A DNA stretch of 64,000 bases, taken from the IMG/VR virus record IMGVR_UViG_3300010885_050060, positions 78,811 through 142,810 of that record. One strand, 5' to 3'. The position numbers and the translations under genes were made by a program. The notes beneath the pieces are model-generated. The model searched no databases. It was not told the DNA's origin and worked only from the letters and a program-made list of their open reading frames with translations. The stretch is from a virus. Positions 48,778 through 63,679 of the stretch are shown in pieces (the first letter of the stretch is position 1; every line of letters begins with the position of its first letter).

Positions 48778-49653
48778 ATGAGCAAAGTATTAATTTTAGG
48801 AAAAGGTTTCGTTGGTAACTATTTAAACAAACGACTGTCGGTTAAAAATAAACTTCACATCTCTAAAAAAGATGTGGACTACTCTGATTATAATACATTT
48901 TTTAATTTCTTAAAAAAGCATAAATATCCAGCACCAGAAGAACAAAGAATTGAGCATGTTATAAACTGTTCTGGATATACGGGATCTCCAAACGTAGATG
49001 CCTGTGAAGATAACAAAGAATCTTGTTATCACTACAATGTAACAATTCCATTATACATCACAGAAGCATGTAATCGTTTAAGCATTCCAATAACACATAT
49101 CGGAAGTGGATGTATATATGATGGGTATGAAAAATTTTATAGCGAAGAAGACATTCCGAACTTTGGAGCAGATTGTCATTATTCTTCGTTTTACTCAAAG
49201 ACAAAAGATGCCTTTGAAAAACTTTCTGCTCGCTTTGATAGGTCTGTGTTGAGAATTAGGATGCCATTCTGCGAAGAAGTTAATCCTAAAAATTATATAA
49301 ACAAACTCCTCAATTATGATACTTTGATATCTAAACCAAATTCATTAACATCTTTATATGATTTGAGTTTATTTGTTAATAAGTTTATATCAAGCGGATT
49401 AAGTGGAGTTTATAATATTGTAAATGATGGATCCATCGACTCCATAGAAATTACAAGAATTCTTAAGACACATGGAGTTGATAATCCTAATTGGAAATTC
49501 GTTTCAATTAAAGATTTATCAACTAAAACACAAAGAAGTAACTGTATTCTCTCTACAGAAAAAATTGAAAAGAATTTTGGAAAGCTTCCAAATGTCACAG
49601 AAAGCCTAGAATGGGCAGTAAAATATTTTGCGGAAAATTTAAAAAAACAATGA
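48778..49653 (+). CDS. Nucleotide-sugar reductase/epimerase (NRS/ER, RmlD-like)
   Basis: 291 residues with a Rossmann fold. The NAD(P) motif is LGKGFVGNYL at the N-terminus. NCSGYTGSPNVDACE at about residues 62-76 matches the signature of the bifunctional UDP-4-keto-6-deoxyglucose epimerase/reductase family (NRS/ER) of plants and giant viruses. The catalytic YxxxK is YSKTK (within FYSKTKDAF). It would make a 6-deoxy-sugar such as rhamnose, for host surface or virion glycosylation. No partner 4,6-dehydratase is in the window. Confidence 0.75.
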   Translation: MSKVLILGKGFVGNYLNKRLSVKNKLHISKKDVDYSDYNTFFNFLKKHKYPAPEEQRIEHVINCSGYTGSPNVDACEDNKESCYHYNVTIPLYITEACNRLSIPITHIGSGCIYDGYEKFYSEEDIPNFGADCHYSSFYSKTKDAFEKLSARFDRSVLRIRMPFCEEVNPKNYINKLLNYDTLISKPNSLTSLYDLSLFVNKFISSGLSGVYNIVNDGSIDSIEITRILKTHGVDNPNWKFVSIKDLSTKTQRSNCILSTEKIEKNFGKLPNVTESLEWAVKYFAENLKKQ

Positions 49654-49979
49654 AATTTAACAATCTTTTTAAAAAATATCTGAAAGAAACTCAATTAGAA
49701 TTTGATTTCAAATATCCCTCGAAAGAAGAAAAATCAGAAGAGAAGAAAAAACTTCCAGAACCTTCCTTGAAGGATAAGTCTTTGTCAGATTCAAAATTAA
49801 GAACCTTCACCGTATTTTGGGATAGAAATACATATGAAACAACTGCCATTTCAAGGCAAGAAGCAATTTCTCATATTGCTGCTAGATTGTCAAAAGGGTC
49901 AACCAAACCTATCGGAGTTCTAAAAAATGAAATGGCAAATTCATTAGTAAGAGACGAAAAGTGGAATGTAAAATATTAA
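49650..49979 (+). CDS. Small protein with CTS-like N-terminus
   Basis: 109 residues from MKFNNLFKKYLKETQLEF; the ATG overlaps the previous stop (ATGA). The opening ends in a YLKE site resembling the gp21 cleavage consensus L-x-E, as in the CTS-like family of this phage. The C-terminal part RTFTVFWDRNTYETTAISRQ, then EAISHIAARLSK, is a small alpha/beta domain. It is coupled to the reductase gene. Function unknown. Confidence 0.55.
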   Translation: MKFNNLFKKYLKETQLEFDFKYPSKEEKSEEKKKLPEPSLKDKSLSDSKLRTFTVFWDRNTYETTAISRQEAISHIAARLSKGSTKPIGVLKNEMANSLVRDEKWNVKY

Positions 49980-49989
49980 AAGATTTTTC

Positions 49990-50018
49990 TTGATATTTCC
50001 AGAAATATCTCATACAGT
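49990..50018 (+). promoter_or_regulatory. Early-type promoter, leaderless, with operator-like spacer
   Basis: TTGATA (49990-49995), 17-bp spacer containing CCAGAAATATC, TACAGT (50013-50018). The ATG at 50025 is 6 nt downstream. Confidence 0.6.
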
Positions 50019-50024
50019 AAATCC

Positions 50025-50171
50025 ATGTTCACATTCATGGTAATTGCCACTTCAGAAGAAGAAGAACCGTTTCTAGTAGAAGCAAACACTCAAGAAGAAG
50101 CACAGACAAAAGCATTAGAACTCTTGGGCTGGCACGTAATCAAAACAGAAGATGATTCAGAATCTGAATAA
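50025..50171 (+). CDS. Small acidic protein
   Basis: 48 residues, starting MFTFMVIATSEEEEPFLVEA and ending in an acidic tail. The pattern of two strands and a helix (NTQEEAQTKALELLGWHV) is a compact mini-domain. It would be translated from a leaderless transcript. Function unknown. Confidence 0.55.
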   Translation: MFTFMVIATSEEEEPFLVEANTQEEAQTKALELLGWHVIKTEDDSESE

Positions 50172-50179
50172 GATTTTTA

Positions 50180-50208
50180 TTGACAGTAACAAAACCTTTT
50201 AATACTAT
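50180..50208 (+). promoter_or_regulatory. Early-type promoter, leaderless
   Basis: TTGACA (50180-50185), 17-bp spacer, TACTAT (50203-50208); ATG at 50215, 6 nt further. Confidence 0.7.
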
Positions 50209-50214
50209 ATAAAA

Positions 50215-50574
50215 ATGCCAAGAGGTAGACCAAGAAAAAACATTTCTACAAAGAATCTAATTGATAAAAGTATTGTGGGTGTACGCAAGAAACGTACCAA
50301 GTCTATTGTTCCAAGTATTGTGAAAAGACCAGTGGAAGAATTGACTACTAAAGAACGCGAAGAAAGAGAAAAATGGTTGGATAGCTTCTTGCCCAAGATT
50401 GATCTCAATAAGAAAACTGTTGTCCTTGATTTGAATAAGAATGTAGAAGCATGTAAAGAACATACCAAAGGTGCTTGCGTTCGCCCTGACATATATCTAG
50501 ACTATGGATGTAATCACTGCTCGCTATTTGAGAATTGTGCATGTCGCCTAAAAAAAGTTAAAAAAAATTATTGA
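50215..50574 (+). CDS. AT-hook protein with Cys cluster
   Basis: 119 residues. The N-terminus PRGRPRKN is a textbook AT-hook for the minor groove of AT-rich DNA. The C-terminal 45 residues have seven Cys/His candidates (CKEHTKGACVRPD, CNHCSLFENCAC) that could bind zinc. It has its own early-type promoter and lies upstream of the RNA region. A DNA-binding regulator acting early in infection is inferred; no exact family is known to me. Confidence 0.65.
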   Translation: MPRGRPRKNISTKNLIDKSIVGVRKKRTKSIVPSIVKRPVEELTTKEREEREKWLDSFLPKIDLNKKTVVLDLNKNVEACKEHTKGACVRPDIYLDYGCNHCSLFENCACRLKKVKKNY

Positions 50575-50599
50575 CTTTACCGGAAATTTGAAATATAGT
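50571..50599 (+). promoter_or_regulatory. Early-type promoter for the RNA region
   Basis: TTGACT (50571-50576), 17-bp spacer carrying ACCGGAAATTTG, TATAGT (50594-50599). It overlaps the stop of the AT-hook gene. The start ATG of the 32-residue ORF is 7 nt after the -10. Confidence 0.7.
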
Positions 50600-50606
50600 C
50601 CTATAC

Positions 50607-50705
50607 ATGATTTCGAATGACAAAGCTTGGTTGGTAAATAATAAGAGTTTCTGTGGTGGTTACTCTTATTATTTCGGAAGTCCTACCTTCTGTGGTGGTA
50701 GGTAG
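50607..50705 (+). CDS. 32-residue ORF with repeated FCGG motif
   Basis: Leaderless ORF of 32 codons after the 50571 promoter. It starts MISNDKAWLVNN and contains SFCGGYSYYF and PTFCGGR, the FCGG motif occurring twice. The two FCGG codon sets are exactly the loops of two perfect hairpins at 50637-50712, so the sequence may be constrained by RNA, by protein, or by both. No known peptide family is recognised. Confidence 0.4.
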   Translation: MISNDKAWLVNNKSFCGGYSYYFGSPTFCGGR

Positions 50706-50712
50706 GACTTCC
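50637..50712 (+). other. Twin perfect hairpins with identical loops
   Basis: Hairpin 1 pairs 50637-50648 with 50662-50673 (12 bp), hairpin 2 pairs 50676-50688 with 50700-50712 (13 bp). Stem sequences differ, but both loops carry TTCTGTGGTGGT. Neither is followed by a T-run, so they are not ordinary terminators. Confidence 0.75.
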
Positions 50713-50789
50713 TTAAATTTGTGAGTTGGTTCCCGATGAGCCAATGGGACTGGGAATACTCGGTCGAAACCAAAATCGGAAATTGATAT

Positions 50790-51118
50790 TTGACATTTTA
50801 ATTTTTTGGTAGATAGAGTAGTAATACCTATCCCTGTGGACTCGAAAGAGGAGTGATATCTGAAAAGAAGCGTTTCGAGAGTATTCGCACTCACTTACCA
50901 AATAATATTTTAAACCCGCCATGCCTCTGCTTGCAAGAGTAGTTTCTGAAGGCCAAGGCAACTAAGCAAGTCATGCATAATTTGGCGGGTGTTTTTATCA
51001 AGCGCAGATGCTATTTAAAAAGCTCTACCGCGACAGATGACAATGCAATGTTTCCGGAAACAACATTTAATCTGTAGGGAACTTCTCCTTAATAATCAAA
51101 AAAGAATGAGAAGTCTTG
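50790..51118 (+). ncRNA. Structured non-coding stretch upstream of tRNA-Tyr
   Basis: No ORF of convincing quality lies here. A promoter-like TTGACA (50790) with TAGAGT (50814) could start an RNA near 50826. Visible pairings include GAGTG with CACTC (about 50850/50888), the closing stem described at 50914-50996, CAGAT with ATCTG around an AATGTT/AACaaCATT hairpin (51033-51074), and ACTTCTC with GAGAAGT (about 51081-51113). TTTAAAAAGCTC at 51014-51025 is repeated in the block after tRNA-Tyr. It may form the 5' half of a large ornate RNA. Confidence 0.4.
50914..50996 (+). terminator. Closed multi-helix element followed by a T-run
   Basis: ACCCGCCA (50914-50921) pairs perfectly with TGGCGGGT (50983-50990), followed by GTTTTT. 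Inside, CTTGC (50930) pairs with GCAAG (50966). It could be an unusual terminator or a domain of the structured RNA. Confidence 0.45.
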
Positions 51119-51133
51119 GTAATAAATTTAAAT

Positions 51134-51220
51134 GGGTTACTATACCGTTAAAGAGGCGGTCCAGACTGTAAATCTGGCGTGTTCTGCACTCACTAGGAGC
51201 ATTACCTAGGTAGCCCACCA
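51134..51220 (+). tRNA. tRNA-Tyr (anticodon GTA), unusual T-loop
   Basis: Acceptor GGGTTAC pairs with GTAGCCC, and CCA is encoded. Anticodon stem CCAGA/TCTGG has loop CTGTAAA with anticodon GTA. A class II variable arm (about 15 nt) follows, as expected for bacterial tRNA-Tyr. The T-stem CTAGG/CCTAG is perfect, but the T-loop is AGCATTA instead of the TTCRANN consensus. A D-stem CCG/CGG is present. Confidence 0.85.
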
Positions 51221-51225
51221 TTTTA

Positions 51226-51612
51226 ATATAGAAAGAATAGATAGTGTTAGTAATAAATTTTGACTGGGATGTTGGTCTAGAAAATCATCATCTAAGGAGT
51301 GGAACTGGACGTGGAGAACTGGTAATTAGTAGGGACACAATTCATATAAGCCCTACATCCTATTTATAGGTACGGAGATGACCGTGAATTGCGTTTCACA
51401 GGATAGAGAAATCTATAACCCCTTTAGCTTTAAAAAGCACACCAGTTTATTTTTGATAAGTCGGACGGGGAATGTGTGCTGTGCATTCTTAAAAAGCTCA
51501 CCGTTGCAGACGTATCACCAGACCCGATTAGGCAGGGGGTAACAAGTAACCTTCGTCCAACGTGTTAAAAACACGGTAGCCAATGAAGAGCTTTCTGGAA
51601 TTGATATTTAAA
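51226..51612 (+). ncRNA. Structured non-coding stretch between tRNA-Tyr and tRNA-Met
   Basis: 387 nt with no convincing ORF and many pairings: GTAGGG/CCCTAC (51329/51351), GTGAA/TTCAC, ATAGA-gaaa-TCTAT, GCACAC/GTGTGC (51437/51474), AAAGCTC/GAGCTTT (51493/51588). The motif TTTAAAAAGC occurs at 51429 and, as CTTAAAAAGCTC followed by ACCG, at 51488; a matching copy lies at 51014. Size, repeats and a setting among phage tRNAs recall the GOLLD and ROOL large RNAs, but identity is not proven. It could be the 3' half of one RNA with the block before tRNA-Tyr. Confidence 0.45.
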
Positions 51613-51634
51613 ATTATATTGTAAATAGTTTATA

Positions 51635-51707
51635 TGCGGGTTACAGTTCTGGCGAACTGAGGGGTTTCATAAGCCTCTTTAGGTGGATTCGATTTCCACA
51701 CCCGCAA
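51635..51707 (+). tRNA. tRNA with CAT anticodon (Met or Ile2), copy 1
   Basis: Acceptor TGCGGGT/ACCCGCA, D-stem CAGT/ACTG, anticodon stem GGGGT/GCCTC with loop TTCATAA, T-arm GTGGA-TTCGATT-TCCAC. Anticodon CAT. Whether it is Met or lysidine-modified Ile cannot be told. CCA is not encoded. Confidence 0.85.
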
Positions 51708-51715
51708 TTTTTAAT

Positions 51716-51848
51716 TCCTCATTAGACGAATTGGTAAAGTCACGGGACTGTGGGAGAAGCAGGTTAGCGTAATATGAGTTCGATTCTCATAACTCCAAGT
51801 CTAATCCCGCGCAGCAATGCATTCTTCGTTCAAGTCGAAGATGAGGAG
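51716..51848 (+). tRNA. tRNA-Ser (anticodon GCT) interrupted by a 50-nt insertion
   Basis: Without bases 51751-51800 every part of a class II tRNA-Ser is present: acceptor TCCTCAT/ATGAGGA (7 perfect pairs), D-stem GAC/GTC with GG in the loop, anticodon stem CGGGA/TCCCG, loop CTG+CTAA giving GCT, variable arm GCA-gcaa-TGC, T-arm CTTCG-TTCAAGT-CGAAG and discriminator G73, as tRNA-Ser requires. The loop CTGCTAA is the usual one for tRNA-Ser(GCU). The insertion splits the anticodon between bases 34 and 35. CCA is not encoded. Confidence 0.75.
51751..51800 (+). other. 50-nt insertion within the tRNA-Ser anticodon
   Basis: Exactly 50 nt between G34 and C35. It forms a hairpin TATGAG-ttcgatt-CTCATA whose loop copies a tRNA T-loop, with an outer GGAG/CTCC pairing. 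It is far too short for a group I or II ribozyme, and bacteria lack the tRNA splicing endonuclease. It also supplies the ATG of the overlapping ORF at 51774. Confidence 0.65.
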
Positions 51849-51950
51849 CATTTTAGAATAGATAAAAAGGTTCTCGATGATCCAGATAAAAAAAATCGAA
51901 AATACTTCTTGACCTTTTCAGAAAAAATTGTTAGAGTATTTGAAGATTAG
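51774..51950 (+). CDS. 58-residue ORF overlapping tRNA-Ser
   Basis: Starts MSSILITPSLIPRSNAFFVQ inside the tRNA-Ser insertion, continues through the tRNA 3' half and ends KYFLTFSEKIVRVFED. The second half, beyond the tRNA, looks protein-like, with an amphipathic mix of charged and hydrophobic residues. A weak AGG lies about 10 nt before the ATG. Either a small gene has come to overlap a tRNA, or the N-terminal half is an accident and the true start is elsewhere. Confidence 0.4.
   Translation: MSSILITPSLIPRSNAFFVQVEDEEHFRIDKKVLDDPDKKNRKYFLTFSEKIVRVFED
51909..51937 (+). promoter_or_regulatory. Early-type promoter upstream of tRNA-Leu
   Basis: TTGACC (51909-51914), 17-bp spacer with TTTTCAGAAAAAATTG, TAGAGT (51932-51937). 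It overlaps the end of the 58-residue ORF and would transcribe the downstream tRNA genes. Confidence 0.5.
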
Positions 51951-52012
51951 TAAAGGTTATCTGAACCTTGTAAAAAAATCAGAAAAGATTTTTGATAGAA
52001 TAGAATTTATAT

Positions 52013-52355
52013 GGTCGAGTGGTGGAATGGCAGACACAACGGACTTAGAGAAATTTGAGCTTTGATTGGGAAACCTTTCAAATGTAACTTGTCAAATTCG
52101 GTGAAGGGTTTAAACTCCTAATACCGAGCCAAGCATCGAAAGATGAAGGTGTAGAGACTTGACGGCAAGAACCTAAAGCGAAAGCAATGGTTAAGGTAAA
52201 GTCCAGACTACAAACAGATTGAGAAAAGTAAATCCCGAAAGGATTGAACAGAGCGGTAAATACGCTGACTGACGAATCTGGTAACGAAAGTTATAGTAGT
52301 AAGAAAATCCGTTGCCAGTAATGGCGTGAGGATTCGAGTTCCTCCTCGACTACCA
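52013..52355 (+). tRNA. tRNA-Leu (anticodon TAA) with group I intron
   Basis: Exons are 52013-52046 and 52304-52355. Joined, they give acceptor GGTCGAG/CTCGACT, D-stem GTG/CAC, anticodon stem ACGGA/TCCGT with loop CTTAAAA, variable arm GCC/GGC, T-arm GAGGA-TTCGAGT-TCCTC, discriminator A and an encoded CCA. The anticodon TAA is split after U34 by the 257-nt intron. Confidence 0.92.
52047..52303 (+). ncRNA. Group I intron (IC3-like) in tRNA-Leu
   Basis: 257 nt, no ORF. Core elements: CCGAGCCAAGC (Q) near 52125, GTGTAGAGACTTGACGG (R) near 52160, GTAAAGTCCAGACTAC (S) near 52197. GACTT pairs with AAGTC as P7. The 5' exon ends in U, which can pair with G in the GAG at 52056 (P1), and the intron ends in G (52303). 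Sequence and insertion site between U34 and A35 match the cyanobacterial and plastid tRNA-Leu(UAA) introns. Confidence 0.92.
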
Positions 52356-52363
52356 ATTTAAAA

Positions 52364-52457
52364 GCAAGGTTAGTGTAACTGGAAGCACCGACAGACTTAT
52401 AATCTGTGTATCCTAGATTTGGATCGAGCGTGGGTTCAATTCCCACACCTTGCACCA
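52364..52457 (+). tRNA. tRNA with TAT anticodon (Ile) and long variable arm
   Basis: Acceptor GCAAGGT/ACCTTGC with encoded CCA, D-stem GTG/CAC, anticodon stem ACAGA/TCTGT with loop CTTATAA, T-arm GTGGG-TTCAATT-CCCAC. Anticodon TAT reads AUA (Ile). The variable region is 22 nt with a hairpin ATCC-tagattt-GGAT, typical of Leu, Ser and Tyr tRNAs but not of Ile. Confidence 0.8.
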
Positions 52458-52480
52458 TTTTGTAAGTAGTTGATTTAGAT

Positions 52481-52552
52481 AGGGGTGAAGCATATTGGTC
52501 ATGCGCTCTGCTCATAACGGAAGGAAAGTGGGTTCGATCCCCATCGCCCCTA
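52481..52552 (+). tRNA. tRNA with CAT anticodon (Met or Ile2), copy 2
   Basis: Acceptor AGGGGTG/CGCCCCT, D-stem GCAT/ATGC, anticodon stem TCTG/CGGA (4 pairs, one G-T) with loop CTCATAA, T-arm GTGGG-TTCGATC-CCCAT. Anticodon CAT. No encoded CCA. Confidence 0.8.
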
Positions 52553-52564
52553 CATTTTTCATAA

Positions 52565-52649
52565 GCACTTGTAACTCAACGCTCTTCTAAAGCGTCCTTT
52601 AACGAGTAATTGGATATAAGGTCTGTTGGTTCGAATCCAACCAAGTGCG
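52565..52649 (+). tRNA. tRNA-Arg (anticodon TCT) with displaced D-arm
   Basis: Acceptor GCACTTG/CAAGTGC, anticodon stem ACGCT/AGCGT with loop CTTCTAA and T-arm GTTGG-TTCGAAT-CCAAC are all perfect. However only TAACTCA lies between acceptor and anticodon arm. The matching D-stem strand GAGT and the classic D-loop AATTGGATA lie after the anticodon arm, at 52604-52616, within a 29-nt variable region. A tRNA fold would need ACTC (52574-52577) to pair with GAGT around the anticodon arm. Confidence 0.7.
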
Positions 52650-52690
52650 CTTAATAAACAAAATACAGGTTCAAATCTCATTTCAATACA

Positions 52691-52807
52691 ATGCCCCACA
52701 AAAAACCCAAACCCTCCCACAAAGAAATTCTAAAATATCTGGAATTTCTTTCCTCAATCAAAAAAGTAAAGCCTTCTAAAACTCTCTTGACACCCAAGAA
52801 AAACTAA
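52691..52807 (+). CDS. Small basic ORF
   Basis: 38 residues, starting MPHKKPKPSHKEILKYLEFL, Lys/Pro-rich. It lies between the last tRNA and the next early promoter, which overlaps its 3' end in the style of other genes here. There is no recognisable Shine-Dalgarno sequence. It may be real but is too short to be sure. Confidence 0.35.
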   Translation: MPHKKPKPSHKEILKYLEFLSSIKKVKPSKTLLTPKKN

Positions 52808-52815
52808 CATACCAT
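52787..52815 (+). promoter_or_regulatory. Early-type promoter, near-leaderless
   Basis: TTGACA (52787-52792), 17-bp spacer, TACCAT (52810-52815); ATG at 52824 is 8 nt further. Confidence 0.6.
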
Positions 52816-52823
52816 CTAACATC

Positions 52824-53132
52824 ATGGATATACTAAGAATCCTCCCAAAGGGAGAAAACATTGAAAACATAATAGAATCATTTAGAAGTACTTTAATCAA
52901 TTCTAAATGTGAACATTCTGCCAAGGTGTCGGTTTTCGTAGTAACAAAAGAAAAGTTTGAAAGGTCATGGAATTTAATATATCCAAACAATGAAGATGCC
53001 TTGTTGGAATCCTTGAAGAAAGAATATTTGGAATTGATTAACCAGAGACGAGTAACCGTAACAGTGGCAGAGGAAGAGAATTATTTTTTAAAAAACATTA
53101 AAAAAAATATTGACGAGAACGATATTTTTTAA
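52824..53132 (+). CDS. Small hypothetical protein
   Basis: 102 residues: a compact alpha/beta first half (MDILRILPKGENIENIIESF, AKVSVFVVTKEKFERSW) and a charged helical tail (ESLKKEYLELINQRR). No motif is recognised. It heads a set of six small co-oriented genes, several coupled by ATGA overlaps. Confidence 0.6.
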   Translation: MDILRILPKGENIENIIESFRSTLINSKCEHSAKVSVFVVTKEKFERSWNLIYPNNEDALLESLKKEYLELINQRRVTVTVAEEENYFLKNIKKNIDENDIF

Positions 53133-53138
53133 TACATT
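53110..53138 (+). promoter_or_regulatory. Early-type promoter, leaderless
   Basis: TTGACG (53110-53115), 17-bp spacer, TACATT (53133-53138); ATG at 53145 is 6 nt further. Overlaps the end of the preceding gene. Confidence 0.55.
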
Positions 53139-53144
53139 CAAATT

Positions 53145-53309
53145 ATGGAAGAAAACTACATCAAACTAATAAGCAAATACGGAAATCAAAAAGTGGAATT
53201 CACAATTGATCCCGACATTGACATGACAGTAATGGTATCAACTCTGGAATGCTTCTTGAAAGCTATTGGATACCAATTCAATACACTGGAGGAATGGATT
53301 AACGAATAA
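53145..53309 (+). CDS. Small acidic protein
   Basis: 54 residues, starting MEENYIKLISKYGNQKVEF and ending FNTLEEWINE. It has a strand-strand-helix pattern, with TVMVSTLECFLKAIGYQF as the helix. Too short for the long-ORF list but well placed behind a leaderless promoter and one base before the next gene. Function unknown. Confidence 0.55.
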   Translation: MEENYIKLISKYGNQKVEFTIDPDIDMTVMVSTLECFLKAIGYQFNTLEEWINE

Positions 53310-53310
53310 T

Positions 53311-53478
53311 ATGAAACTAAAAGACATTGAAATACCAGATGGGCCAGTACTGGCAATTTTAGGATTTGGCTGCATATATTTTGGTGCTTGTTTGTTGGGC
53401 CTGACAATGACAATCGTCAAAGCAATTGCACTATACTTCTTTAACTATACTATTACAATCGGAGGAATACCACTATGA
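53311..53478 (+). CDS. Small membrane protein A
   Basis: 55 residues from MKLKDIEIPDGPVLAILGF. Residues about 13-50 are one long or two short membrane helices (LAILGFGCIYFGACLLGLTM).  A GGAGG-type Shine-Dalgarno sequence (ctggaggaatgg) lies upstream in the preceding gene. Its stop overlaps the next start (ATGA), pairing it with another membrane protein. Confidence 0.6.
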   Translation: MKLKDIEIPDGPVLAILGFGCIYFGACLLGLTMTIVKAIALYFFNYTITIGGIPL

Positions 53479-53669
53479 AAAGTAATGATATGCTTTTTAC
53501 CGGATTCGGATTAATTCTATTTGGAATCGGACTTCTTCTTATCAGTCCCTTCCTCTTGATATGGTCGGTGAATGGATTGTTTGGATTGACAATTCCTTTC
53601 ACATGGACAAATTGGTTCTATGCCTTCATCATTATTATGTTGCTCCGAGGAAGTATTAGTAGCAAGTGA
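53475..53669 (+). CDS. Small membrane protein B
   Basis: 64 residues with two predicted membrane helices: FTGFGLILFGIGLLLISPFL and WFYAFIIIMLLRG. It is coupled to the preceding membrane gene by overlap. Such pairs in phages can be holin-like or modify host membranes, but nothing specific is seen. Confidence 0.6.
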   Translation: MKSNDMLFTGFGLILFGIGLLLISPFLLIWSVNGLFGLTIPFTWTNWFYAFIIIMLLRGSISSK

Positions 53670-53671
53670 TT

Positions 53672-53959
53672 ATGAATTACGATAAAGTTGATACTAAAAA
53701 GGCAAATGGAACTTCCTTTCAGGGAAAGATTAAAACAAACTTCTATAGGTTGGAAGAAGTATTCGGAGAACCCTTGTATCCAAATAGCGGAGACGGAAAG
53801 GTTATCTGTGAATGGGTATTGGAATTTGAAGACGAAACAATTGCAACGATCTATTGTTGGAAAGTTTCATCAATTCCTGTAGAAGAATATGATTGGCACA
53901 TTGGCGGACATTCACAAAAAGCAGTTGAATATATTAAAACCTGTTTGAAAGAAAATTAA
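53672..53959 (+). CDS. Small cytoplasmic protein of unknown function
   Basis: 95 residues from MNYDKVDTKKANGTSFQGK; a GTG at 53666 overlapping the previous stop is an alternative start. The pattern YRLEEVFGEPLYPNSGDGK, then ICEWVLEFEDETIATIYCWK, then a C-terminal helix, resembles a family of uncharacterised phage proteins with alternating strands. No active site is evident. Confidence 0.6.
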   Translation: MNYDKVDTKKANGTSFQGKIKTNFYRLEEVFGEPLYPNSGDGKVICEWVLEFEDETIATIYCWKVSSIPVEEYDWHIGGHSQKAVEYIKTCLKEN

Positions 53960-53961
53960 TA

Positions 53962-54201
53962 ATGAATACAAAACAATATAGAATCAGTCTGGATAACCAA
54001 AAGAACTTCATTCTCAATACCTGCCCGATTGATGAACTAACAGAAGGATTCATCAGGGATGTTGTCATTGCATATAGGCTCCGACATATTAACCTGTTGA
54101 AGGCTCTGGAACATTTCTCAAAGAAAGATATAGAACAGGTTCTAGAAGCAATGGCGAATCTTAATCATACTATTGAAGAATTTATCAAAGAAGAAGATTA
54201 A
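53962..54201 (+). CDS. Small helical protein
   Basis: 79 residues, starting MNTKQYRISLDNQKNFILNT. A helical pair follows (GFIRDVVIAYRLRHINLLKA, DIEQVLEAMANLNHTIEEF). It begins two bases after the previous stop. Function unknown. Confidence 0.55.
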   Translation: MNTKQYRISLDNQKNFILNTCPIDELTEGFIRDVVIAYRLRHINLLKALEHFSKKDIEQVLEAMANLNHTIEEFIKEED

Positions 54202-54207
54202 AGAAGT

Positions 54208-54215
54208 ATAAGTAA
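54208..54215 (+). promoter_or_regulatory. Late-like promoter box
   Basis: TATAAGTA, one mismatch from TATAAATA, 14 nt before the ATG at 54230. Confidence 0.35.
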
Positions 54216-54229
54216 TTTACAATTCAAAT

Positions 54230-54928
54230 ATGAAAACCAAAGATCAAATATTATTAGAAGATTTATATATATCTATATATAACGAAAACAATCAACAGGA
54301 TGCATTAGCAAAACTTTCTCCGCACTTACAACAAATTGCTAATGATCTTTTATCATATCTTTCAAAGGGAGCAAGAAAGGCTAGTTTTTATTACCGATCT
54401 AAAATAAGCGGAAGAGAAGGAAAATATTACGTGGATCTTGGAGTTGATTATGGAACTGCAAAAAGAGAAAGCCATGAAACCATAAGAAACTATATCGACA
54501 TGCTAAAGGAAAGCGATCCGGAAAATCCGGATATAGCAGTTGGAGAAAAAATTTTAAATCCATCAGAATCCACAAGAAAACCTTCGGTAGATAGAAAAAT
54601 AAATCTTGGACATGGAATATCAATTCAAGATACTGTAAAAGAACCAGAAGTATATCGCCTATATATCTATGCATATGCTCAAAATGACATAGAAAAGGAT
54701 GAAGAGGGAAAGGCCATAAAAAACTTTGAAGGCAATTATGTTCGATCTTCTGCGGGAAAGGTAGATGAAGTTATTCCTGCATCAAAACCAAAATCTTTCA
54801 GCAGTGCAGAACAACTTAATTATAAATTAAAAACAAAACTTTCTAGATTTCGAAGATTCATTCTCGATCCGGAAAACATTTCAGGAATTACATACAAAGG
54901 CGGAATAATAGAATTCCAAAATCAATAA
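54230..54928 (+). CDS. CTS-family protein 1 (candidate internal head protein)
   Basis: 232 residues. The N-terminus MKTKDQILLEDLYISIYNEN belongs to a set of five proteins here that share MKTKDxILLExxY. That peptide resembles the T4 capsid-targeting sequence, which directs internal proteins into the prohead and is cut after an L/I-x-E site. The remainder is hydrophilic, with a YRLYIYAYAQNDIEKDEEGK segment and a C-terminal KSFSSAEQLNYKLKTKLSRF. No enzyme family recognised. Confidence 0.6.
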   Translation: MKTKDQILLEDLYISIYNENNQQDALAKLSPHLQQIANDLLSYLSKGARKASFYYRSKISGREGKYYVDLGVDYGTAKRESHETIRNYIDMLKESDPENPDIAVGEKILNPSESTRKPSVDRKINLGHGISIQDTVKEPEVYRLYIYAYAQNDIEKDEEGKAIKNFEGNYVRSSAGKVDEVIPASKPKSFSSAEQLNYKLKTKLSRFRRFILDPENISGITYKGGIIEFQNQ

Positions 54929-54978
54929 TAAAAAGAAATTTTAAATAAAGTTTTTTTTTATATTTTGGCATACCGTGA

Positions 54979-54986
54979 TATAAATA
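54979..54986 (+). promoter_or_regulatory. Late promoter, exact TATAAATA
   Basis: TATAAATA ending 8 nt before the ATG at 54995. Confidence 0.65.
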
Positions 54987-54994
54987 TTATTATT

Positions 54995-55339
54995 ATGAAA
55001 ACAAAAGATACAATACTATTAGAGAAAGCCTATAAAAAAGTTTTGAAGGAAGCCGAAGTAGGATCTTATGGAGAACGTATGAATGCACAGGGAACACTTT
55101 CTAATGCTAATCCTGCGGAAGTTTATGCAAAATTTGAAGAACTTACAGATAACTTTTACGCCAGTTTAAAAAAGGTAAAAACCCTTTTAGATAGTGAGGT
55201 TTGGAAAAAATTAGCGAACAATGGAGGGTTTAATGATATTTTGGATCATGAAGAGGGTGACGATTATGGTTCAGGTTCACATCCATTCGATTTTGACGAC
55301 TGGGTAAGCCAAGTTGACGTTAAAGGTTATTATTTCTAA
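54995..55339 (+). CDS. CTS-family protein 2 (candidate internal head protein)
   Basis: 114 residues from MKTKDTILLEKAYKKVLKEA. An upstream in-frame start at 54965 is rejected because the late box lies between. The CTS-like first ten residues end in ILLE. The body is acidic (NDILDHEEGDDYGSG) and ends DVKGYYF. A strong terminator follows the stop. Function unknown; co-packaging is inferred. Confidence 0.6.
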   Translation: MKTKDTILLEKAYKKVLKEAEVGSYGERMNAQGTLSNANPAEVYAKFEELTDNFYASLKKVKTLLDSEVWKKLANNGGFNDILDHEEGDDYGSGSHPFDFDDWVSQVDVKGYYF

Positions 55340-55363
55340 GTTGTAAATATTTTATTTTAAATT

Positions 55364-55402
55364 AATACCACACCTTGTAAAAATACAACAGGGTGTGGTA
55401 TT
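55364..55402. terminator. Bidirectional terminator
   Basis: AATACCACACC (55364-55374) pairs with GGTGTGGTATT (55392-55402); inside, TTGTA pairs with TACAA. It separates the converging genes at 54995 and 55410. Confidence 0.75.
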
Positions 55403-55409
55403 ATAGCAT

Positions 55410-56162
55410 TTAAATAAAAGTAAAATATTCTTTAAATTTAATACTACTAATTCCCTCTTCGTATTTGTGTAGAGGTTCTTTCATAAGTTCTTTATCCTCT
55501 TGTTCCTCTTTTAATTTATAAGTCAAATTCAAAAGTTCTTTGCTACTTTTAATCCTTCCAAATTCTTGCGGAGATATTATTTCAATGTTTGGATTTAATT
55601 GCTTTAAGGTTTTAATTATATTAACATACTTCTGACTATTACTCGGCGGGGGCGTACCCCTTCCAATCCATTCTTGATTGGTTGTCTTGGGAACACTGGC
55701 AAAGACAACCTCGGCAGTATTAAAATCCATAATACCTTCATCATAATGAAGAGATTCATCATATCCATTGAAGTCTTTATCAATGCCATGCAATCTTTCG
55801 TCCTTCAATCGCGGACTTGTTGCAATTCGAGAACCATCTGGAAGTTGCTTGGTATATGCATCAAAGTCATATAATTCTTTTATTTTACCAAATCCAACTA
55901 TTATTATACTATTGTTTTCGTCTCTATATACCGAATTGCTTCTTATGGTTGAAACACAGATTTCAGCCTTTTTTCCGATTTGTTTCAAATTAACCAAATC
56001 ATTTGCATTCTCTTCTGTCCAATAAAAGGAATGGATGAATATTCCATGATACAGACGATTATATTCCTCTGCCTTTTTTTGGCCTACTTTCATCATGTTT
56101 GAATTCGGTTGAATGTTTTCTTTATAAAGATTTTCTAAAAATACTTGATCTTTTCCGCGCAT
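55410..56162 (-). CDS. CTS-family protein 3 (candidate internal head protein)
   Basis: 250 residues, starting MRGKDQVFLENLYKENI, a variant of the CTS-like peptide ending in FLE. The body contains LYHGIFIHSFYWTEENANDL, NSIIIVGFGKIKELYDFDAY and TAEVVFASVPKTTNQEWIGR, suggesting an alpha/beta enzyme-like domain that I cannot name. An exact TATAAATA lies 6 nt before the ATG, so it is late. A delivered effector is possible. Confidence 0.6.
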   Translation of the reverse strand: MRGKDQVFLENLYKENIQPNSNMMKVGQKKAEEYNRLYHGIFIHSFYWTEENANDLVNLKQIGKKAEICVSTIRSNSVYRDENNSIIIVGFGKIKELYDFDAYTKQLPDGSRIATSPRLKDERLHGIDKDFNGYDESLHYDEGIMDFNTAEVVFASVPKTTNQEWIGRGTPPPSNSQKYVNIIKTLKQLNPNIEIISPQEFGRIKSSKELLNLTYKLKEEQEDKELMKEPLHKYEEGISSIKFKEYFTFI

Positions 56163-56168
56163 ATGATA

Positions 56169-56176
56169 TATTTATA
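56169..56176 (-). promoter_or_regulatory. Late promoter, exact TATAAATA
   Basis: TATAAATA on the minus strand, 6 nt before the ATG at 56162. Confidence 0.65.
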
Positions 56177-56186
56177 AAAAAAAGTT

Positions 56187-57062
56187 ATGGAACAATTAGA
56201 TTTTTTTGTAAAGTTGGAAGAGAAGAAACCAATTTGTCGTGTTTGTGGTAATGATTTTGAAAAAACTAGAAGATGGCAAAAATATTGTTCTAAAAGTTGT
56301 AAACACAGAAAGTTGAGAATTAAAAAAAAACTATCTAATTTTGTAAAATTAGAAGAAAATAAACCAATTTGTTCTATTTGTGGGAATAGTTTTGAAAAAA
56401 CTAAACATAATAAAATATACTGTTCTAAAAGTTGTAAACATAGACAGGGGTGGATTAAAAACAAAAAAACAAAATCTATATCTAATAAAAAATATCGTTT
56501 AATTAATAAGAAAAAAATAAAAGAAAGAAGAATAGAAACATCTAAAATATATAGAGAGAAAAATAAAGAAGAAATAAAAAAAAAGCAATTAGAATTTTAT
56601 AAAAAAAATAAAAAACGTCTGTGTGAGATTCAAAAAGAATATCGTAAAAATAACAAAAATTCTATATCAGAAACTAAAAAATTATATAGAAAAAATAATA
56701 GAACAAAAATAAATCAAAATTTAAAGGAAAAATATTGTACTGATTTTTCCTTTAAACTTTCACAAATTTTAAGAAAAAGATTAAGAAACGGATTACGAGC
56801 ACAAAAAACAACAAAAACAAATAAAACAGTTGATTTAATAGGATGCTCCTTTGATTTTGTTAAAATTCATTTAGAAAAACAATTCAAAGAAGGAATGACA
56901 TGGGAGAATCATGGTTTATATGGATGGCACATTGATCATATTATACCTTGTGCATCTTTTGATCTAACAGACCCTGAACAACAAAAGAAATGCTTTCACT
57001 ACACAAACCTTCAACCCCTATGGGCAGCAGAGAATATGTCCAAAGGAGCAAAGATATTATAA
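56187..57062 (+). CDS. HNH homing-type endonuclease with two zinc fingers
   Basis: 291 residues. Two N-terminal zinc-finger-like repeats occur (CRVCGNDFEKT...YCSKSCKHRK and CSICGNSFEKT...YCSKSCKHRQ). A long Lys/Asn-rich helical linker follows. The C-terminus is an HNH domain: YGWHIDHIIPCASFDLTDPE, then HYTNLQPLWAAENMSKGA, giving the His-x-x-His/Asn-His metal site. Such enzymes nick or cut DNA and spread as free-standing homing genes. It lies between CTS-family genes on the opposite strand, consistent with invasion of this cluster. No intron flanks it. Confidence 0.85.
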   Translation: MEQLDFFVKLEEKKPICRVCGNDFEKTRRWQKYCSKSCKHRKLRIKKKLSNFVKLEENKPICSICGNSFEKTKHNKIYCSKSCKHRQGWIKNKKTKSISNKKYRLINKKKIKERRIETSKIYREKNKEEIKKKQLEFYKKNKKRLCEIQKEYRKNNKNSISETKKLYRKNNRTKINQNLKEKYCTDFSFKLSQILRKRLRNGLRAQKTTKTNKTVDLIGCSFDFVKIHLEKQFKEGMTWENHGLYGWHIDHIIPCASFDLTDPEQQKKCFHYTNLQPLWAAENMSKGAKIL

Positions 57063-57437
57063 ACCAAATGATCGGTAGTTTGTTTCTATGAAATTAATAA
57101 AATTTTGAATATTTGTATTATCAAAATCTTTTATATTCTCGACATTTTGTAGCATACTCATCAAATTATTAAGAGTCTGCTTTAATTCATTATTATTATT
57201 AAAACTTTCAAATCTTCCACTATTAGCCATGTCCTGTAAAATTCTAAAAAAGTGATTAAATAAATCCCCTTCTCTAGAACTCCCTAAGTTTTTTGATTTG
57301 ATTTCATTTAATATGGGTTCTAAAACATCCATAAGTTCCATAAACAATCTTTGAAGATCTTGAATACCACTTCCATAAAAATTTTCAAAAACTTTTTCGT
57401 AGGCTTGTTCTAATAATATAGTATCGTTTGTTTTCAT
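57057..57437 (-). CDS. CTS-family protein 4 (candidate internal head protein)
   Basis: 126 residues, starting MKTNDTILLEQAYEKVFENF, with the CTS-like ILLE site. The body is helical and Asn-rich (LNEIKSKNLGSSREGD, LMSMLQNVENIKDFDN). Its promoter region is a near copy of that of the next gene, so the two are probably duplicates. The 3' end overlaps the HNH gene end by 6 bases. Confidence 0.6.
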   Translation of the reverse strand: MKTNDTILLEQAYEKVFENFYGSGIQDLQRLFMELMDVLEPILNEIKSKNLGSSREGDLFNHFFRILQDMANSGRFESFNNNNELKQTLNNLMSMLQNVENIKDFDNTNIQNFINFIETNYRSFGL

Positions 57438-57482
57438 ATTTTATATATTTATATTAAAAATAACCAAATTCCTCTTATTCTT
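57435..57482 (-). repeat. 48-bp direct repeat carrying a late promoter (other copy 58039-58086)
   Basis: The sequence from the start codon through ACCAAATTCCTCTTATTCTT is identical at 57435-57482 and 58039-58086. It covers promoter and start region of two paralogues, indicating tandem duplication. Confidence 0.85.
57446..57453 (-). promoter_or_regulatory. Late promoter, exact TATAAATA
   Basis: TATAAATA on the minus strand, 8 nt before the ATG at 57437; sits in a 48-bp repeat. Confidence 0.65.
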
Positions 57483-57486
57483 TATA

Positions 57487-58041
57487 TTAATCTAAAGGAG
57501 CATTCGGTTTATCTTTAAAATAAGAAGCCATGCCCTTACTTCTATTTGCCAACATATCAATGTATCTTTCAACATTGTATATTGTTTCCTCATCCTCAAT
57601 CGGCCCTGTAATAATATCATTAGGACGAATATCCAAACCACCCCTATAAGAACCCTCTTCCCCTTCTGAATTATAAATTTTATACTTAATTCCGGTTCTG
57701 GTATCAACATCATTAGTAGCAGGTGCTATTTCCTTCTGACCCATATCCCTTTGCTCATCCTCTACAAATATTTTACCCGCAGATAAGTCTGCAATTTTAT
57801 ATAACCTTGGATTATATCCATCTTGTTTAGAATGAATATACCAAGAACCTTCTTTTAAATTTTCATTCTCAATAGCATCATAAAAATTTTGCTTCGGTAA
57901 GGAAGATACATTATCTCCCAATGCTTTTTTCAAAGGAGAACTAAAATCTGCACCCTTAAAGAATTCTTCAGAAGTTGAATTATCTTTCCCAAGAACCTTT
58001 TCATAGGCTTGCTCTAATAGTATTGTATCTTTTGTTCTCAT
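57487..58041 (-). CDS. CTS-family protein 5 (candidate internal head protein)
   Basis: 184 residues, starting MRTKDTILLEQAYEKVLGKD, again the CTS-like peptide with ILLE. The body contains SWYIHSKQDGYNPRLYKIAD followed by LSAGKIFVEDEQRDMG, and reads like a small beta-barrel or SH3-like domain. The late promoter 8 nt upstream is shared with the neighbouring paralogue by duplication. Function unknown. Confidence 0.6.
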   Translation of the reverse strand: MRTKDTILLEQAYEKVLGKDNSTSEEFFKGADFSSPLKKALGDNVSSLPKQNFYDAIENENLKEGSWYIHSKQDGYNPRLYKIADLSAGKIFVEDEQRDMGQKEIAPATNDVDTRTGIKYKIYNSEGEEGSYRGGLDIRPNDIITGPIEDEETIYNVERYIDMLANRSKGMASYFKDKPNAPLD

Positions 58042-58049
58042 ATTTTATA

Positions 58050-58057
58050 TATTTATA
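58050..58057 (-). promoter_or_regulatory. Late promoter, exact TATAAATA
   Basis: TATAAATA on the minus strand, 8 nt before the ATG at 58041. Confidence 0.65.
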
Positions 58058-58117
58058 TTAAAAATAACCAAATTCCTCTTATTCTTCATATAAGATATAA
58101 GAAGTATTGGGGAAAGC

Positions 58118-58231
58118 TTTTGAAGATTAAGAAAATTTTTGAAGACTTTTTTATATTAAGAAAACTTTTGAAGATTACGGAGAATTTTGAAGATTAAGAA
58201 AACTTTTGAAGATTAGGGAGAATTTTGAAGA
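58118..58231. repeat. Iteron-like array, 19-bp period
   Basis: TTTTGAAGA occurs at 58118, 58137, 58166, 58185, 58204 and 58223: steps 19, 29, 19, 19, 19. Non-coding and AT-rich. Confidence 0.8.
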
Positions 58232-58630
58232 CTTTTTTATATTACACTCGGTTTTTTTTAAAAATTTTGCAAAAAAAATTTTACCAGAAATTTTTAAAAA
58301 TGTCAAGAATAATCTTCAAAATCTTTAACTCTTTAATATCCAAAATTTTACACAATATTCCCAATACTCCCAAGCCTTCCCAAGTATCCCCCAAGGGGTA
58401 TAGGGGGTATAAGATTCTTAATATTATATCAAATAGGGTATAGTGTTTTTATATCAACCTCTGTTTTAATAGAACATGGTGTAGCATTACAGCAGGATTT
58501 AAAATGACATTAGGTGTTGATGCAGGTTTCTAGCATTTGTAATATTAAGCATATTAGTATAAATTTCCTCTAGGGGGAAAATTACTAATTGATATATAAT
58601 ATTAAGAATACTTCCCAATGCTTTTTAATA

Positions 58631-58917
58631 TTACCGGAAATTTCTCCTAGGGGGAAAATTGAATATTACTGGAAATTTCTCCTAGGGGATTTTTAATATT
58701 ACTGGAAATAATATTATGAAGAATTTTTAATATTACTGGGAATATTATTATGGGAAATTTTTAATATTACTGGGAATAATATTACGAAGAATTTTTAATA
58801 TTACTGGAAATTTCTCCTAGGGGGATTTTTAATATTACTGGAAATTTCTTCTAGGGAATTATTGATAATATTAGGAAGGGTATTGGGGGAGGGATGATTG
58901 AGTATTACTGGGAATTT
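58631..58917. repeat. Iteron-like array, 34-bp period
   Basis: TTAC(C/T)GG(A/G)AAT elements start at 58631, 58666, 58699, 58733, 58767, 58801, 58835 and 58904, plus a degenerate one near 58870. The period is 33-35 bp. Several carry CTCCTAGGGGG. The element resembles the spacer motif of the early promoters. The rest of 58042-59256 has no convincing gene. Confidence 0.85.
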
Positions 58918-59034
58918 TTGAGGATTTTTGATATTATTTTTATTGGGAAAATTTTTTTTGGTGTGAGTATGATTGTGCATATATTTATGCGTATATGATG
59001 GGGGAGGGGAGGGGTAGGCAGATTTTGCCTATCA

Positions 59035-59166
59035 AAAGTTTTTGGAGGTGTCGAAAAATAAAAATTTGACACCTCCAAAACTTTGAAATTTTTGATGCGG
59101 AAATTTTTGCCTATCAAAAGTTTTTGGAGGTGTCGAAAAATAAAAATTTGACACCTCCAAAACTTT
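59035..59166. repeat. Two copies of a long hairpin repeat (third copy 62409-62455)
   Basis: Each copy has stem GGAGGTGTC/GACACCTCC extended by TTTT/AAAA and AAAG/CTTT, around a loop GAAAAATAAAAATTT. Copies: 59035-59084, 59117-59166 and 62409-62455. The latter two lie upstream of the promoters of rIIA and the LysM gene. Confidence 0.85.
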
Positions 59167-59218
59167 CCATGCTGTGGTTGCTCTCCCAAACTTTTTTTCA
59201 TGTTTCCAAAAATAGTTC

Positions 59219-59247
59219 TTGCTTTTACCAGAAATAAAAACTATTCT
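59219..59247 (+). promoter_or_regulatory. Early promoter for rIIA
   Basis: TTGCTT (59219-59224), 17-bp spacer with TTACCAGAAATAA, TATTCT (59242-59247). The ATG at 59257 is 9 nt further; no leader longer than a few bases. Confidence 0.65.
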
Positions 59248-59256
59248 ATTTGCCTT

Positions 59257-61224: not shown

Positions 61225-61227
61225 ATC

Positions 61228-61256
61228 TTGCAATTACCAGAAATAATCTCTACTAT
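61228..61256 (+). promoter_or_regulatory. Early promoter for rIIB
   Basis: TTGCAA (61228-61233), 17-bp spacer with TTACCAGAAATAA, TACTAT (61251-61256); ATG 61267, 10 nt further. Shares GCCTTATGA at the start codon with rIIA. Confidence 0.65.
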
Positions 61257-61266
61257 TATCAGCCTT

Positions 61267-62313
61267 ATGAACACTACAAACAATGCAGTCACAATCACAG
61301 GAACAGGAAAAATCGCAGCGGTCGTCAATGGCAGACCATACTCGATTGCTTCTGATCATCCAAACTACAATCAAATCATTGGGGCTATCAAATCCCAAGA
61401 CTGGACTTCGTTCGTAACTCTTGCCGATGTTACAAGCCAAGTGAAACAATACACGACAACCGATGGAGTTGAGATCGTGGATGGAGCAGTCATCTATAAG
61501 GGTGAAGCAATTCACAATACTCTCACCAATCGAATCGTGAAGTTCATGGGTGAAGGTCTGCCCTTCCAACCCCTCGTAAGGTTCTTGGAAAATCTGATGA
61601 ACAATCCAAGCAAGCGAGCAGTGGATGAACTCTACACATTCTTGGAAGTCGGGGAACTTCCAATCACAGAGGATGGATGCTTTCTGGCATACAAGAATGT
61701 TCGTGCGGATTACATGGACATTCATTCGGGAACATTCAGCAACAAGATTGGTGATGTTTGCGAAATGCCTCGCAATCGGGTTTGCGATGATAGCGAACGC
61801 ACTTGCTCTGCGGGTCTTCACTTCTGTTCAATCGCATACCTTCCCCACTTCTCCGATAGTGATGGAGGACATACAATGATTGTGAAGATCAATCCTGCGG
61901 ATGTTGTTTCAATTCCAAAGGATTACAACAATACTAAAGGTCGGGCTTGCAAGTATGAAGTCATTGCAGAATACACCGAGGATTGGCGTTCCAAGCTCAA
62001 CAAAGGTGAAAGCGGATGGGATGCAGGTCTTTACACTTCTGATGGTGAAGACTATGAGCTTGATGAACTCGATGAGCTTGACGAAAATGAAAACGAAAAC
62101 GATTGCACCTACTCTCATCCAGATTGCGATGATTACCATTGCTTCTGCGAGGACAAGGATTATGGTTACAAACCCAATGGTCACAAGTTCCACAATGTTC
62201 GTGGAGCCGATGGAAAGTTTGTAAAGAAAGAAGAAGAAGGTTTAGGTAAGGTGGTTGGTGGATTGGTGAAGGCATTCAGCGATGCTCTCAACAAAGCAGG
62301 ATATATTCACTAA
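61267..62313 (+). CDS. rIIB: RIIB-like protein
   Basis: 348 residues from MNTTNNAVTITGTGKIAAV, against 312 for T4 rIIB. Matching blocks are PLVRFLENLMNNPSKRAVDE followed by LYTFLEVG, ITEDGCFLAYKNVR, MPRNRVCDDSERTCSAGLHF and DVVSIPKDYNNTKGRACKYE. The N-terminal helix-turn-helix of T4 rIIB is missing. The C-terminal extension is acidic and then His/Cys-rich (HPDCDDYHCFCEDKDYG). It is expected to work with RIIA. Confidence 0.93.
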   Translation: MNTTNNAVTITGTGKIAAVVNGRPYSIASDHPNYNQIIGAIKSQDWTSFVTLADVTSQVKQYTTTDGVEIVDGAVIYKGEAIHNTLTNRIVKFMGEGLPFQPLVRFLENLMNNPSKRAVDELYTFLEVGELPITEDGCFLAYKNVRADYMDIHSGTFSNKIGDVCEMPRNRVCDDSERTCSAGLHFCSIAYLPHFSDSDGGHTMIVKINPADVVSIPKDYNNTKGRACKYEVIAEYTEDWRSKLNKGESGWDAGLYTSDGEDYELDELDELDENENENDCTYSHPDCDDYHCFCEDKDYGYKPNGHKFHNVRGADGKFVKKEEEGLGKVVGGLVKAFSDALNKAGYIH

Positions 62314-62330
62314 TCGTTTCATAGGGAAAA

Positions 62331-62363
62331 ATCCCCACTCTCAAAAGGAGTGGGGATTTTTTT
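62331..62363 (+). terminator. Rho-independent terminator after rIIB
   Basis: ATCCCCACTC pairs with GAGTGGGGAT (62331-62340, 62348-62357), followed by TTTTTTT. Confidence 0.9.
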
Positions 62364-62507
62364 GTGCCTTGAAAAGTTTACCATTTCAAAAAACCCTTCC
62401 CGTAAAACTTTTTTGGAGGTGTCGAAAAATAAAAATTTGACACCTCCAAAACTTTCCGCACTGGATGAGTGCTGCGGTTGCGTTTTTCAAACCATCGAAA
62501 AAAGTTC

Positions 62508-62536
62508 TTGACCTTACCAGAAATTTCTGAGAGAAT
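62508..62536 (+). promoter_or_regulatory. Early promoter with full operator-like palindrome
   Basis: TTGACC (62508-62513), spacer TTACCAGAAATTTCTGA containing the palindrome CAGAAATTTCTG, GAGAAT (62531-62536); ATG 62545, 8 nt further. Confidence 0.6.
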
Positions 62537-62544
62537 TATTGTCT

Positions 62545-63224: not shown

Positions 63225-63234
63225 AAAATAGTTC

Positions 63235-63642: not shown

Positions 63643-63679
63643 TAAAATCAACCAACAAAAAAAACAAACCAAAAACCAA

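Follow-up and report, generated by a model that had tools for sequence, protein, structure and literature searches.

Phage tRNA clusters are known to contain tRNA pseudogenes and chimeras. In other settings tRNA genes are interrupted by introns: a group I intron occurs inside the anticodon of bacterial tRNA-Leu(UAA), and archaeal and eukaryal tRNAs carry short bulge-helix-bulge introns in the anticodon loop, in archaea also at non-canonical sites. The canonical position of the archaeal and eukaryal introns is one nucleotide 3' of the anticodon (a passage of PMC4090602). Breaks in the anticodon loop can also be rejoined in phage-infected cells, where T4-type RNA ligases repair tRNA-Lys cut by PrrC, as described in part of PMC10264068. 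Here we describe a tRNA-Asn gene of a T4-like phage in which 50 nt stand inside the anticodon. This anatomy is real and uncommon.

The gene lies in a 64,000-nt stretch (the window) that is part of a 142,810-base virus record, IMGVR_UViG_3300010885_050060. Matches to rIIA and rIIB and a Gp38-like adhesin identify the source as a T4-like phage. The same phage is represented by a 202,880-base record, IMGVR_UViG_3300009185_000001 (G001), which agrees with positions 49197-64000 of the window (14.8 kb, tRNA-Asn locus included) without a mismatch and with a single gap opening; the two assemblies may or may not rest on independent reads. The locus is known from metagenome contigs only, as would suit an assembly artefact, but two assemblies are concordant without mismatch across those 14.8 kb. 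Moreover, the 23-nt core of the insert occurs, within viral_contigs, only in this phage's contig and at one place there, so that the insert is not a stray copy of some other part of that contig. We regard an artefact as extremely improbable. The features of the locus and its immediate neighbours are:

51716..51751, + strand: 5' exon of tRNA-Asn(GUU), with the acceptor 5' strand, D-arm, anticodon stem 5' strand and C32 U33 G34 U35 (alignment to the intact genes of L160, L162 and L164)
51752..51801, + strand: 50-nt insert between anticodon nucleotides 35 and 36, a tRNA-Ile(UAU)-like relic without anticodon arm (absent from the homologues; similarity to tRNA-Ile(UAU))
51761..51773, + strand: insert block resembling the 5' part of tRNA-Ile(UAU), 12/13 nt against L162/L163 (alignment)
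51774..51796, + strand: insert block resembling the T-arm and acceptor 3' strand of tRNA-Ile(UAU), 20/23 nt (alignment)
51774-51790, + strand: canonical T-arm of the insert (T-arm pattern)
51802..51848, + strand: 3' exon of tRNA-Asn, with U36 A37 A38, anticodon stem 3' strand, long variable arm, T-arm, acceptor 3' strand and G73 (cloverleaf and homologue comparison)
52013..52355, + strand: tRNA-Leu(UAA) with encoded CCA and a group I intron at about 52047-52303 after U34 (RF00028 match; tRNA and intron ends by eye)
52364..52457, + strand: the window's own tRNA-Ile(UAU), which has a long variable arm and resembles the insert less closely than the L162/L163 copies do (ARAGORN, relaxed Rfam search, alignment)

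In three related viral contigs (L160, L162 and L164) this position is occupied by an uninterrupted homologue. It is a tRNA-Asn(GUU) whose variable arm is long; ARAGORN names it tRNA-Asn in each of them, and it precedes the same downstream element (AGGTTCTCGATGA...) and tRNA-Leu. A different, ordinary tRNA-Asn is found at the corresponding place in L157 and L163. The anticodon is GUU in 3/3 homologues (loop CTGTTAA in L162 and L164, TTGTTAA in L160). Relative to them, the window gene has 50 nt between nucleotides 35 and 36 and no contiguous anticodon, and since the insert has different bases at its two ends, its boundary has no room to shift. Without 51752-51801 the gene has the loop CTGTTAA, G73 and 23/23 pairs; the exon junction U35|U36, if joined, would read ...CGGGACUGU|UAAUCCCG.... 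Comparison with the homologues makes it very probable that the gene is an interrupted tRNA-Asn(GUU).

A preliminary description of this DNA had claimed that removal of 50 nt leaves a complete tRNA and that the split lies inside the anticodon. Both points hold, with a full cloverleaf at 51716-51848 ending in G73. It had also placed the insertion at 51751-51800 and read a tRNA-Ser(GCU) with the loop CTGCTAA. The homologues put the insert one base rightward, and the serine reading, the product of a cut one base too far left, was rejected since GUU and not GCU is present in all three. ARAGORN with introns allowed proposed a tRNA-Arg(tct) at 51716-51849, which was rejected on the same three homologues. 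With this third reading (serine when read by eye, arginine according to ARAGORN and asparagine from the comparison), the anticodon identity is shown not to be fixed by the window sequence alone. The split tRNA is absent from the three tRNAs that ARAGORN reported in the window and from the two found by Rfam at the gathering score.

The relatives were reached by several routes. An rIIA query yielded two loci. One is the phage itself; the other belongs to a relative in which the contig stops next to rIIA and ARAGORN finds no tRNA. The neighbouring sugar-nucleotide gene gave 13 loci, 12 of which were scanned (L140 being the phage itself); ARAGORN tRNAs were found only in L144, where a tRNA cluster lies downstream of the gene's copy, and in L145. 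L157, L160, L162, L163 and L164 were obtained with two short cluster patterns and one 3'-exon pattern. Among the seven stretches matching the first cluster pattern, L153, L154 and L156 had no homologue of this tRNA-Asn according to ARAGORN, and L155, L158 and L159 were further pieces of contigs already in the set; among the six matching the second, L161 was dropped as coding sequence without a tRNA. The exact 3' exon matched four stretches of viral_contigs, a scan that covers interrupted tRNA-Asn genes of these letters only, and 0 in genome_contigs. BLASTN of the L162 tRNA-Asn and the L162 tRNA-Ile against 50,697 phage records gave no match. For interrupted tRNA-Ser genes elsewhere, the pattern GACTG...GTTCGANYC...CTAATC, designed for the serine reading and a 34/35 site, hit 117 stretches of viral_contigs, and no second case was kept; an anticodon-stem check of 138 locus records returned 16 rows, 10 of them the phage's own records and six that, on inspection by eye, were not tRNAs of this sort. 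The 735-kb phage LR756501 was rejected as a comparison, a tRNA-Leu match being all that it shares.

Between 51600 and 51900, RF00028 gave no match at E up to 10, and the neighbouring tRNA-Leu gene does match this model. The earlier statement that the insertion is not a group I intron thus stands. Pairing of GACT in exon 1 with AGTC at the end of the insert was also considered as a bulge-helix-bulge-like helix; by eye the bulges on either side do not seem to fit.

The insert itself contains a canonical T-arm, a feature present in 57 of 2,000,000 shuffled inserts, in agreement with the T-arm-like hairpin reported in the preliminary description. In a plain local alignment the best foreign match was the tRNA-Ile(UAU) of L162/L163 with a score of 34, which is within the shuffle range (200 shuffled inserts; 95% point 31, maximum 36). 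When one long deletion was allowed, this tRNA-Ile(UAU) was the best of 70 tRNAs with a score of 48, the next other tRNAs reaching 31 and the window's own tRNA-Ile(UAU) 30; the alignment consists of two colinear blocks (12/13 and 20/23 bases), between which the insert lacks 50 inner bases of the tRNA. Against the three Ile copies, 100 full shuffles reached at most 31, and shuffles in which the T-arm was kept and the rest randomized had a 95% point of 43 and a maximum of 49, with 1 to 4 of 100 reaching 48. Taken together, the T-arm shuffles and the long-deletion alignment with its nulls make the tRNA origin of the insert firm, as judged from sequence, and its derivation from tRNA-Ile(UAU) likely.

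Read from the sequences, the insert starts with GGG, which are nucleotides 1-3 of the L162/L163 tRNA-Ile, and by the T-arm ruler its last base, 11 nt past the T-stem, is nucleotide 76. Both edges coincide with mature tRNA ends, a match seen post hoc. There is a 6-nt addition between nucleotides 3 and 4, only four consecutive acceptor pairs form, and the 3' end is AGTC, not CCA; a cut after nucleotide 73 would leave three extra bases.

The exons are well preserved. In the joined cloverleaf all pairs of the acceptor (7/7), D (3/3), anticodon (5/5), variable (3/3) and T (5/5) stems form, with G73, and the 23/23 exon pairs are intact in all four sequences (window, L160, L162 and L164), with no stem decay. 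The preliminary description had envisaged related phages with a tRNA-Ser elsewhere and this locus in decay. As worded this does not apply, the intact gene sitting here in three relatives, and for the stems it is contradicted, no exon pair being broken in the window.

Compared with its nearest relative, L164, the window gene differs at 7/83 positions, which make up three compensated pairs (6:77, 12:24 and 62:72 in gene numbering) and one variable-loop base; each of these pair states is unique to the window among the four sequences. In simulations, seven random substitutions kept every pair in 1.4% of trials, and kept all pairs while creating three compensated pairs in 1 of 400,000. The right flanks of the window and L164 are 94.4% identical (5.6% different) over 161 nt. 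By comparison, L164 differs from L160 at 2/83 gene positions with a flank difference of 24%, and from L162 at 4/83 with 15%. On these sequence differences, the window gene thus appears to have diverged faster than the copies of its relatives, with its structure kept. Three compensated pairs and no broken one imply that either the insertion is recent and all exon changes predate it, or the exons stayed under selection afterwards. On its left side the window gene has a flank unlike that of L164, and the excess change could be explained equally by recombinational gain of the gene from a more distant phage or by selection after insertion.

The tRNA cluster is unstable. The group I intron of the window's tRNA-Leu(UAA) was found in a relaxed search (RF00028, 50.5 bits at 52037-52223; gathering score 50) and is unlisted in the gathering-score run; the tRNA-Leu genes of L157, L160, L162, L163 and L164 are 82 to 86 nt long and have no intron. 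Genes for HNH or homing endonucleases neighbour tRNAs or separate them in L163 (phrog_10822, 6e-33), L162 (phrog_559, 3e-9) and, more weakly, L157, and one lies beside tRNA-Val in G001 (phrog_16726, 1e-23); an L164 ORF at the same place as the relatives' endonuclease genes has no clear family.

Several other features of these clusters were noted. In L160 the next gene, a different tRNA, contains a group I intron at 23-249 (82.9 bits), and L157 has nearly the same letters at about 8750-9050, a likeness only, with no RF00028 match listed. A hairpin-forming repeat (GGTTCYCGATGATCCAGAT...) occurs near tRNAs in the window (51869-51887) and L157 (7893-7911 and 8470-8488) and is kept in several relatives; a less similar copy lies at about 50731-50790 of the window, and at 50620-50720 two adjacent hairpins share, by eye, the loop motif CTGTGGTGGT. 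In three phages (window 52364-52457, L162 3205-3298 and L163 2060-2153) the variable arm of tRNA-Ile(UAU) is long and class II-like, and enlarged variable regions are also seen in the window tRNA-Asn, the L154 tRNA-Pro and the tRNA-Thr and tRNA-Trp of L144. The window's tRNA-Arg(UCU) at 52565-52649 lacks a D-arm at the normal place and carries a D-loop-like AATTGGATA within its long variable region, an arrangement suggestive of a segment swap; in L157, L162, L163 and L164 this tRNA is of ordinary length (ARAGORN). A tRNA-Ser(UGA) with the T-loop ATCGATA at 11414-11497 of L019 (G001) was missed by ARAGORN.

Some tRNAs with perfect stems have T-loops of an xGC type (AGCATTA, GGCGGTA, AGCATAA, AGCGTTA and GGCAGCA) instead of TTCRANY. 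They account for 5/42 cloverleaf hits in 16 loci scanned on both strands, where shuffled controls gave 0 hits of any kind, and several of these tRNAs were missed by ARAGORN:

Window 51134-51217: tRNA with an xGC T-loop (cloverleaf scan)
L144 14387-14457, 14977-15047 and 16542-16613: tRNAs with xGC T-loops (cloverleaf scan)
L019 (G001) 11259-11331: tRNA with an xGC T-loop (cloverleaf scan)
L144 14565-14636 and 14822-14892: further tRNAs with xGC T-loops (by eye)

The usual GG is absent, by eye, from the D-loop in four of the five. The pattern suggests that the two sides of the D-loop/T-loop elbow have changed in concert.

A transcript of the DNA in its present form would lack a contiguous anticodon, and we infer that the gene is most likely broken and non-decoding. 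A recently broken tRNA-Asn is the explanation that we prefer, with moderate confidence. Judged by alignment, the piece that splits its anticodon is degenerate and derived from a tRNA, probably tRNA-Ile(UAU). The relic would have entered the tRNA-Asn when tRNA genes of the cluster recombined illegitimately or when a break was repaired between them, template switching being an alternative to break repair at this step, and the result would be a tRNA-Asn that no longer decodes. The instability of the cluster, with its introns and endonuclease genes, favours break repair or template switching as the origin. Of the marks of a tRNA pseudogene, a disabling change is present (the interrupted anticodon) and stem decay is absent (0/23 pairs broken). 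The 23/23 exon pairs without a lesion and the three window-only compensated changes speak against a broken gene, as do insert edges that equal mature tRNA ends, which is odd for random debris. The preliminary description had offered removal of the insert from the RNA, a broken or decoy tRNA, and escape from a nuclease. Among these the broken tRNA is favoured for its interrupted anticodon, albeit with no exon pair broken; removal from the RNA and nuclease escape find no support in these sequences. No other tRNA-Asn was found in G001, whose completeness is not established, among six matches to the Rfam tRNA model at E up to 1, and ARAGORN found no tRNA in bases 1-79000 of G000; both tools miss unusual tRNAs of the kind seen in this phage group. 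A search of the PMC literature, mostly of titles and abstract openings and hence no proof of absence, found no tRNA relic inside a phage tRNA.

Alternatively, the relic could be excised as a tRNA-derived intron. RNase P would cut 5' of G51752, a 3' tRNA nuclease would cut at or near 51801, and T4-type RNA ligases would join U35 to U36, giving tRNA-Asn(GUU). Cleavage by RNase P and RNase Z produces 3'-OH and 5'-P ends, the kind sealed by T4-type ligases, and tRNA end processing needs a T-arm and part of the acceptor. The insert retains both and, starting with GGG and ending at nucleotide 76, has edges like those of a mature tRNA-Ile, and the exons are intact with compensated changes. However, the insert has only its four consecutive acceptor pairs, and AGTC in place of CCA would leave the three extra bases after a cut at nucleotide 73. 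The outer cloverleaf together with the inner fold is predicted at -34.5 kcal/mol, close to the minimum of -35.5, but the required fold is rare in the predicted precursor ensemble, with mean pair probabilities of 0.06 for the anticodon stem, 0.09 for the D-stem and 0.06 for the inner acceptor. With 200 shuffled inserts the means were 0.39 (anticodon stem) and 0.46 (D-stem), and 64% of the shuffles were equal or better on the anticodon stem. The predicted precursor fold therefore does not favour excision.

Both T4-type RNA ligase types are encoded in G001, an Rnl1-like ligase (RNA_lig_T4_1, 1.2e-13; phrog_562, 2e-40) and a second ligase (RNA_ligase, 6.5e-18; phrog_968, 7e-57). They are weak evidence for excision, since coliphages with tRNA-Lys also carry rnl1 and rnl2 (according to part of PMC10264068), and the whole Rnl1-like ORF gave no Pfam family at E 0.001, contrary to its RNA_lig_T4_1 and phrog_562 matches. 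An abstract-level search of the PMC literature found no comparable case. Excision of the insert and ligation of the exons is, in our estimate, unlikely. A history in which a tRNA-Ile landed in the tRNA-Asn anticodon, shrank to its processing signals and is now excised by RNase P and a 3' nuclease, with phage ligases joining the exons, seems quite unlikely.

The unspliced RNA might also be used as such. It could, for example, act as a decoy that draws a tRNA-cleaving defence, or as a tRNA-like hybrid in which the outer D-arm is combined with the insert T-arm. A relaxed Rfam tRNA match at 51722-51791, which joins outer positions from nucleotide 7 to the insert T-arm, would suit the hybrid, as would the pairing probability of 0.86-0.99 predicted for that T-arm in the precursor, but the match, at 20.6 bits, is below the gathering score of 29 and omits the acceptor. 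As to the decoy, part of PMC10264068 proposes that phage tRNAs with altered anticodon loops escape host tRNases (the words insertion and intron are absent from its main text), but no nuclease or target is known here. We consider such a use of the unspliced RNA improbable.

If the tRNA-Asn gene is dead, as we favour, it shows the breaking and rebuilding of tRNA clusters in T4-like phages, and also that reading a split tRNA without relatives can lead to a wrong isotype. Removal of the insert, if it occurs, would represent an enzyme-driven route of tRNA splicing in bacteria without a self-splicing intron, phage RNA ligases would have a use beyond damage repair, and there would be a possible way for tRNAs to give rise to tRNA introns.

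Our findings show both likenesses to and differences from the described systems. The group I intron of bacterial tRNA-Leu(UAA), as in the neighbouring gene, likewise interrupts the tRNA inside the anticodon, but there it is about 257 nt long and has a catalytic core (RF00028), whereas the Asn insert has 50 nt and no such match. Archaeal and eukaryal bulge-helix-bulge introns are also short inserts in the anticodon loop. Their canonical site is 37/38, in contrast to 35/36 in this T4-like phage, a difference that is not decisive by itself, given the non-canonical sites known in archaea. In the PrrC/tRNA-Lys system (PMC10264068, in part) phage ligases likewise rejoin a break in the anticodon loop, but they repair damage, and removal of an encoded insert by such ligases is hypothetical here. 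Pseudogenes and chimeras of phage tRNA clusters share with this locus rearranged tRNA pieces beside endonuclease genes. Unlike the usual examples, the tRNA-Asn has its relic inside the anticodon, with edges at tRNA ends and no stem lesion.
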